A stretch of 64,000 bases of DNA, taken from Cristatella mucedo (Eukaryota > Bryozoa > Phylactolaemata > Cristatellidae). Position numbers and translations under genes: made by a program. The stretch is taken from assembly GCA_009760855.2 (NCBI GenBank), contig WPIO01000026.1, forward strand, positions 3,602,501 to 3,666,500. Reading direction: 5' to 3'. The notes beneath the pieces were generated by a model, which saw nothing but the letters and a program-made list of their open reading frames with translations, searched no databases and had not been told where the DNA came from. Numbering within the stretch: position 1 is the stretch's first letter; every line of letters starts with the position of its first letter. Positions 6,438-35,911 of the stretch are shown one piece after another.

Positions 6438-35911
<29,474 letters not shown>

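Follow-up and report, generated by a model that had tools for sequence, protein, structure and literature searches.

Among RHIM proteins, RIPK1 and RIPK3 are cytosolic kinases, TRIF is an adaptor and ZBP1 senses nucleic acids. The question raised by the 64,000 nucleotides analysed here (the window) is whether a motif of the RHIM type can also stand in the tail of a membrane receptor. The RHIM tetrad follows the consensus (V/I)-Q-(V/I/L/C)-G (PMC9444067), and the core has also been written as G-(I,V)-Q-(I,V)-G (PMC7885112). A sequence-only reading of the window had placed VQIGRGNTM at residues 462-470 of a receptor, preceded by VFVI and followed by INN. The gene model rebuilt here returns the same residues from the 27 bases at 35642..35668 (+), and both flanking segments are present as described.

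The gene concerned, called gene A (6438-35911, +), was rebuilt from splice sites and reading phases. Under this predicted splicing, it consists of nine exons coding for 550 residues and a stop (551 codons), all joints being in phase 1 except the exon 2/3 joint, which is in phase 0. A tandem paralogue, gene B, has its first half in the window (from 45413) and the rest downstream on contig C188, to which the window belongs. Exons 2-9 of gene B lie in the same order and on the same strand as those of gene A, and its first exon was not found (Table 1).

Table 1. Features of genes A and B. Positions are those of the window unless preceded by C188.
Feature	Position	Strand	Content or basis
Gene A exon 1	6438..6513	+	start codon and hydrophobic signal-peptide-like segment
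Gene A exon 2	8336..8469	+	N-terminal ectodomain module, first half; no Pfam match, by eye Ig-like
Gene A exon 3	12801..13026	+	second half of N-terminal ectodomain module
Gene A exon 4	15283..15438	+	ectodomain repeat module 1, first half
Gene A exon 5	22317..22475	+	ectodomain repeat module 1, second half
Gene A exon 6	24016..24177	+	ectodomain repeat module 2, first half
Gene A exon 7	26197..26355	+	ectodomain repeat module 2, second half; paralogue match C188:3667819-3667923
Gene A exon 8	29078..29200	+	transmembrane helix, then basic stop-transfer CCRRRRGR
Gene A candidate optional tail exon	34113..34262	+	150 nt, phase 1-1, frame kept; good in-frame codon score
Gene A exon 9, terminal	35454..35911	+	cytoplasmic tail and stop; paralogous exon C188:3685522-3685934
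RHIM-like core VQIGRGNTM	35642..35668	+	residues 462-470; pattern statistics, Pfam profile, control peptides
Gene B exon 2	45413..45546	+	ectodomain exon; match to gene A
Gene B exon 3	47387..47618	+	ectodomain exon; match to gene A
Gene B exon 4	59053..59214	+	ectodomain exon; match to gene A
Gene B exon 5	59572..59736	+	ectodomain exon; match to gene A
Gene B exon 6	60021..60191	+	ectodomain exon; match to gene A
Gene B exon 7	near C188:3667819, past the window	same as A	ends set by eye
Gene B exon 8, transmembrane	C188:3670006-3670158	same as A	start set by eye
Gene B exon 9, terminal	C188:3685522-3685934	same as A	carries the RHIM-like motif

The terminal exon of gene A stays free of stops for 152 codons up to its own stop. 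Its coding quality was assessed with a codon score whose training set held exons 1-8 of gene A and five paralogue exons but not the tail exon, across a sample of 82 stop-free frames of 456 bases taken at 50-base steps on both strands (exon 9 itself and one overlapping frame included). In its own frame, the tail exon ranked first of the 82, and the next-ranked frame not overlapping it was a LINE. The splice signals at the exon 8-9 joint fit (acceptor tgtttcag, donor GGACAG/gtgagc), this joint being in phase 1 in both genes. Against the exon, the intron that this joint spans measures 6.25 kb in gene A, with transposon remains (15.4 kb in gene B), and no AATAAA or ATTAAA occurs within 2.6 kb 3' of the gene A stop. 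The candidate optional exon of the same intron contains YVDI and overlaps a short repeat at its 3' end; it may be the edge of a repeat turned exon or mark a genuine isoform of the tail. The RHIM-like motif is retained in both splice forms, with or without it.

Topology was deduced from simple rules (hydropathy, RRRR after the helix, sequons) rather than from a trained predictor. By these rules, gene A displays the features of a type I membrane receptor, namely a signal-like N-terminus, a single membrane helix followed by CCRRRRGR, and a positive-inside tail. The helix of exon 8 is the sole segment of its kind on the + strand of the window under the strict rule, and 14 of the 16 N-glycosylation sequons fall on the ectodomain side, the other two being in the tail. 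Because of this hydropathy and stop-transfer layout and of the sequon distribution, the motif most likely lies on the cytosolic side of a single-pass receptor, presumably displayed at the cell surface, which agrees with its earlier assignment to a cytoplasmic exon. The helix of gene B fails the strict rule and passes only a looser one that also yields chance matches, and the transmembrane match between both genes is weak (E 0.45). Modelled by AlphaFold2 from its single sequence, tail A shows no confident fold (mean pLDDT 29.9), weak evidence that it is probably disordered. Its beta propensity peaks at VFVIHAN and in neighbouring windows, adjoining the core.

The ectodomains of A and B contain cysteines and are each built of three two-exon modules. 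One such module is present twice, as exons 4-5 and as exons 6-7, and aligns with its counterparts in B; exons 2-3 form a separate module that is not alike in profile comparison. Exon 2 shares 61% identity with the paralogue exon 45413-45546 over 44 residues. At E<=10, Pfam gave no Ig, FN3 or other ectodomain match for the whole gene A protein and five of the six known ectodomain modules. Against solved structures, the repeat-module profile pointed to an Ig domain of MUC18, with E 0.016 when made from three sequences and 0.34 from four, and the profile of exons 2-3 gave an unrelated fibre chain (E 0.13) ahead of Dscam (E 0.21). Given the lack of Pfam matches, the weak MUC18 and Dscam leads and the unlike modules, Ig/FN3, the name under which the receptor had been introduced, is rejected as an established description. 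The ectodomain is plausibly Ig-superfamily-like, and Ig-like at best on these structural leads; an Ig-FN3-FN3 order is unproven.

Taken alone, a tetrad is worth little. Eight bare [IV]Q[IVL]G tetrads occur in the six frames of the window for 5.25 expected, an unremarkable number, so that the tetrad by itself was rejected as evidence. In the flanks (first 60 kb read), 13 more were counted, among which a loose filter flagged two, that of gene B and another interrupted by a stop codon. The extended pattern [IV]Q[IVL]G..N.[ML] is far rarer: 0.033 sites are expected per window, and among 200,000 shuffled versions of the tail a fraction of about 3e-5 contain it. Two looser patterns scanned over the window each match the 35642-35668 site only.

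Scored with the Pfam RHIM family (PF12721, gathering cut-off 20 bits), tail A reaches 13.5 bits (E 0.055), below the cut-off, RHIM being its best Pfam match. A 29-residue cut of the tail reaches 17.5 bits (E 0.0031), RHIM being the sole Pfam match of that peptide, and the full gene A protein gives 9.5 bits (E 0.99). In the Pfam check proposed by the sequence-only reading, RHIM is the top match of tail A, and all scores, from 9.5 to 17.5 bits, stay under 20. Shuffling the flanks while keeping VQIG abolished the RHIM match in all four peptides; the three fully shuffled controls (of six shuffles made) and two natural tetrads gave none either, the latter being two of the seven others in the window, the remaining five having nearby stops. 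Overall, none of the nine control peptides matched Pfam RHIM, and human RIPK3, the positive control, scored 40.5 bits. The motif of gene B, submitted in three sequence forms, matched no Pfam family.

When gene A is aligned by eye with the solved RHIMs of RIPK3 and RIPK1, the tetrad Q and final G, the N at G+3 and the M/L at G+5 agree, and GxxNx(M/L) after the core is common to A, B, RIPK3 and RIPK1. Both cores fit (V/I)-Q-(V/I/L/C)-G, as VQIG in A and VQLG in B. Where G-(I,V)-Q-(I,V)-G has a glycine ahead of the tetrad, A has T and B has N. The term "RHIM-like" is used here in place of RHIM because gene A stays below the Pfam cut-off and gene B has no Pfam match. At that level, the original assignment holds, since the tetrad and the N and M/L positions fit and the core is kept in a collinear paralogue.

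Indeed, the strongest evidence for the motif is the predicted gene B, beyond the window. Its last exon carries NVQLGNSNTMIINN at the position equivalent to the gene A motif, and a stretch of this exon codes ...STLIFISNTNVQLGNSNTMIINNGNTDH... The two tails are recognisably related (E 1e-7 pairwise, E 1.4e-5 in a search of 297 kb), with large gaps and an identity over aligned positions of 37% by MAFFT or 33% by BLASTP. The longest well-conserved block is NT-(N)-VQ(I/L)GxxNTMI-N; other blocks are kept, such as SP.LEV.FD near the end. The tails differ by I or L in the tetrad and by the two residues following its glycine. Over the six frames of these 297 kb, the strict pattern [IV]Q[IVLC]GxxNx[ML] occurs at two sites, one per terminal exon, for 0.125 expected from 40 order-3 nulls. 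A loose form, [IVLTC]Q[IVLFCM]GxxNx[MLI], devised when both sites were already known, finds the same two sites, one per terminal exon, for 0.725 expected from these nulls. Loss of the VQIG core in related tails had been named beforehand as an outcome that would speak against the motif. This comparison could have failed, and gene B, the one relative available, keeps a VQ(I/L)G core. The collinearity of A and B therefore speaks for exon 9 being joined to the receptor, and it also answers, for one relative, the conservation test.

Searches were extended to the 572 Mb assembly containing the window. The RHIM profile ranked the gene A site seventh of eight listed places among 24 candidates scored, at 16.2 bits and a non-significant E of 8.4. 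The profile score alone is not significant genome-wide; the conserved tail of the paralogue carries the case. Two other places exceeded 20 bits, and neither was accepted as a RHIM gene. At C497:1664652, IQIGHGNQL scores 21 bits in an open frame of only 39 codons; the minus-strand segment C497:1664652-1664699, VQSSKGIQIGHGNQLT, which is above the cut-off at these 21 bits, may be a chance match or a small exon. At C110:1716751, 22.2 bits are reached together with neighbours, from a repeated WSVFLNNCS ending in VQL with no glycine.

A search of the same genome for RHIM-bearing partners, another check called for by the sequence-only reading, recognised none. The sensitivity of this profile search is limited, as it did not list gene B, and it therefore cannot show that partners are absent. 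Tail A did not retrieve gene B from the whole genome, and tail B retrieved gene A at E 1.15. Five weak genome matches, three found with tail A and two with tail B, were discarded as family members, since all have internal stops and none carries the core. A DNA-pattern search of the genome returned nothing, even though the window's own site fits the pattern, and is given no weight. Against 5.8 billion proteins, word-based searches of limited reach scored 67 candidates for tail A, none at E<=1, and 7998 for the whole gene A protein, with no relative. Scans of viral and genome contigs, PADLOC, Rfam and a PDB sequence search with the tail yielded nothing useful.

The reading judged probable, with some reserve, is that A and B are tandem paralogous type I receptors whose tails would nucleate RHIM-type amyloid signalling on clustering. 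Each receptor would combine a three-module ectodomain with a single transmembrane exon and a terminal exon whose tail surrounds the RHIM-like motif, the motif regions being VFVIHANTVQIGRGNTMINN in A and LIFISNTNVQLGNSNTMIINN in B. A ligand or cell contact would cluster A and B and bring their tails together, and the clustered tails may then nucleate a cross-beta, RHIM-type fibril beneath the membrane. By analogy with PGRP-LC and Imd, this fibril could template a RHIM-bearing cytosolic partner. RIPK1/3 have been suggested to serve ancestrally in NF-kB activation (PMC12119088), and NF-kB-type signalling would be a first guess for the output, with cell death as a second.

Alternatively, the conserved tail segment may be a short linear motif for binding a folded protein, such as an adaptor, a kinase or a trafficking protein; the receptor would then signal without amyloid, and the likeness to a RHIM would be resemblance only. 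The scores of A below the Pfam cut-off, the lack of any Pfam match in B, the missing glycine before the core and the conservation of other tail blocks, SP.LEV.FD among them, all suit such a motif, whereas the positions conserved are precisely those common to RIPK1 and RIPK3 and strongly beta-prone residues stand ahead of them; this explanation is regarded as rather unlikely. Far harder to defend is a coding tail that happened to hold VQIG..NTM and passed it to both copies by duplication. Bare tetrads are indeed common (5.25 per window by chance) and the genome-wide profile match is poor (E 8.4), but the tails have diverged strongly and yet both keep NT-(N)-VQxGxxNTMI-N, and peptides with shuffled flanks lose the Pfam RHIM match, so that mere chance is very improbable.

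A working RHIM-like tail could also act as a decoy: it might cap partner amyloids at the membrane or sequester them there, the role suggested for Pirk, or keep the paired receptors apart. In the account given by PMC9496462, the cRHIM of PGRP-LC is an interaction partner of Pirk, itself a cRHIM protein, which may destabilise the Imd amyloid or route PGRP-LC to degradation. The differences between tails A and B, at the I/L of the tetrad and at the two residues after the glycine, would be in keeping with such a role, whereas the sequence gives no preference for inhibition over activation, and a decoy is held to be improbable.

Receptors with RHIM-type motifs have a precedent. The cytosolic part of Drosophila PGRP-LC bears a cryptic RHIM, which is reported to assemble into amyloid and is believed to bring in Imd (PMC9496462). 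The earlier remark that no receptor of this kind had been described was thus too strong, since PGRP-LC is a published cryptic-RHIM receptor (PMC9496462). Among the best-ranked results of an open-licence literature search, no RHIM-tailed Ig/FN3-type receptor appeared, PGRP-LC being the RHIM-type membrane receptor found. In both PGRP-LC and gene A, the cytosolic part of the receptor itself bears the motif, whereas PGRP-LC has a peptidoglycan-recognition ectodomain and a cRHIM without the conserved Gln. Gene A, by contrast, has a complete tetrad with Gln and no Pfam match, PGRP or other, in its ectodomain. With RIPK1, RIPK3, TRIF and ZBP1 it shares the tetrad consensus (PMC9444067), and with RIPK3 and RIPK1 also the N and the M/L that follow the core; unlike in those proteins, its motif belongs to the tail of a receptor, and Pfam recognised no further domain. 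In sponge immunoglobulin-TIR receptors, likewise from invertebrates, an unusual ectodomain is joined to a module of innate-immune signalling (PMC6208332), in their case a cytosolic TIR, whereas neither the tail nor the full protein of gene A matches TIR. The fungal PP motif, which partly cross-seeds with human RHIMs (PMC7885112), and bacterial BASS3 also link a receptor to an effector through a RHIM-related motif (PMC7885112, PMC12881547); they belong to soluble NLR-type systems of fungi or bacteria, not to membrane receptors. For other invertebrates, a survey covering two nemertean species reports no RHIM (PMC9835746).

Gene A is therefore not the first RHIM-type receptor; what is new is that the V-Q-(I/L)-G tetrad is complete, that the ectodomain is unrelated and of no known family, and that the receptor pair is conserved. 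It is tentatively proposed that A and B represent an undescribed family of paired adhesion-type or self/non-self receptors with full-tetrad RHIM tails, which would start amyloid signalling at the membrane themselves, with no need of PGRP or Toll receptors. If this is true, RHIM tails joined membrane receptors more than once in animal evolution, and a complete tetrad in another receptor type, unrelated to the first, would show that placing a RHIM directly on a receptor is a repeatable solution. The pair would also offer a compact system, with two natural tails varying by I/L, for clustering-driven amyloid nucleation and cross-seeding between paired receptors.

Some features of the surrounding DNA deserve mention. 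About 8 kb upstream of the window, C188:3594247-3594294 gives a short match to exon 3 (RLDWYKDG, E 0.005), absent at E<=0.01 in the larger search of 297 kb, which is possibly the remnant of a third copy or a chance match. A LINE reverse transcriptase frame (PF00078) occupies 9184-11079, its best relative, an ENA contig, being 69% identical over 66%. Truncated LINE copies are numerous in the window and also occur in the 6.25 kb intron that precedes the gene A tail exon. On the minus strand, 27104-27499 holds a frame of 132 codons with only a sub-cut-off USP47_C match in Pfam, which by eye we take to resemble a hAT-type transposase. Long trinucleotide and CT/AG microsatellites, at about 14400-14600, 41020-41190, 45080-45310, 58290-58450 and 61460-61760, produce long spurious open frames.
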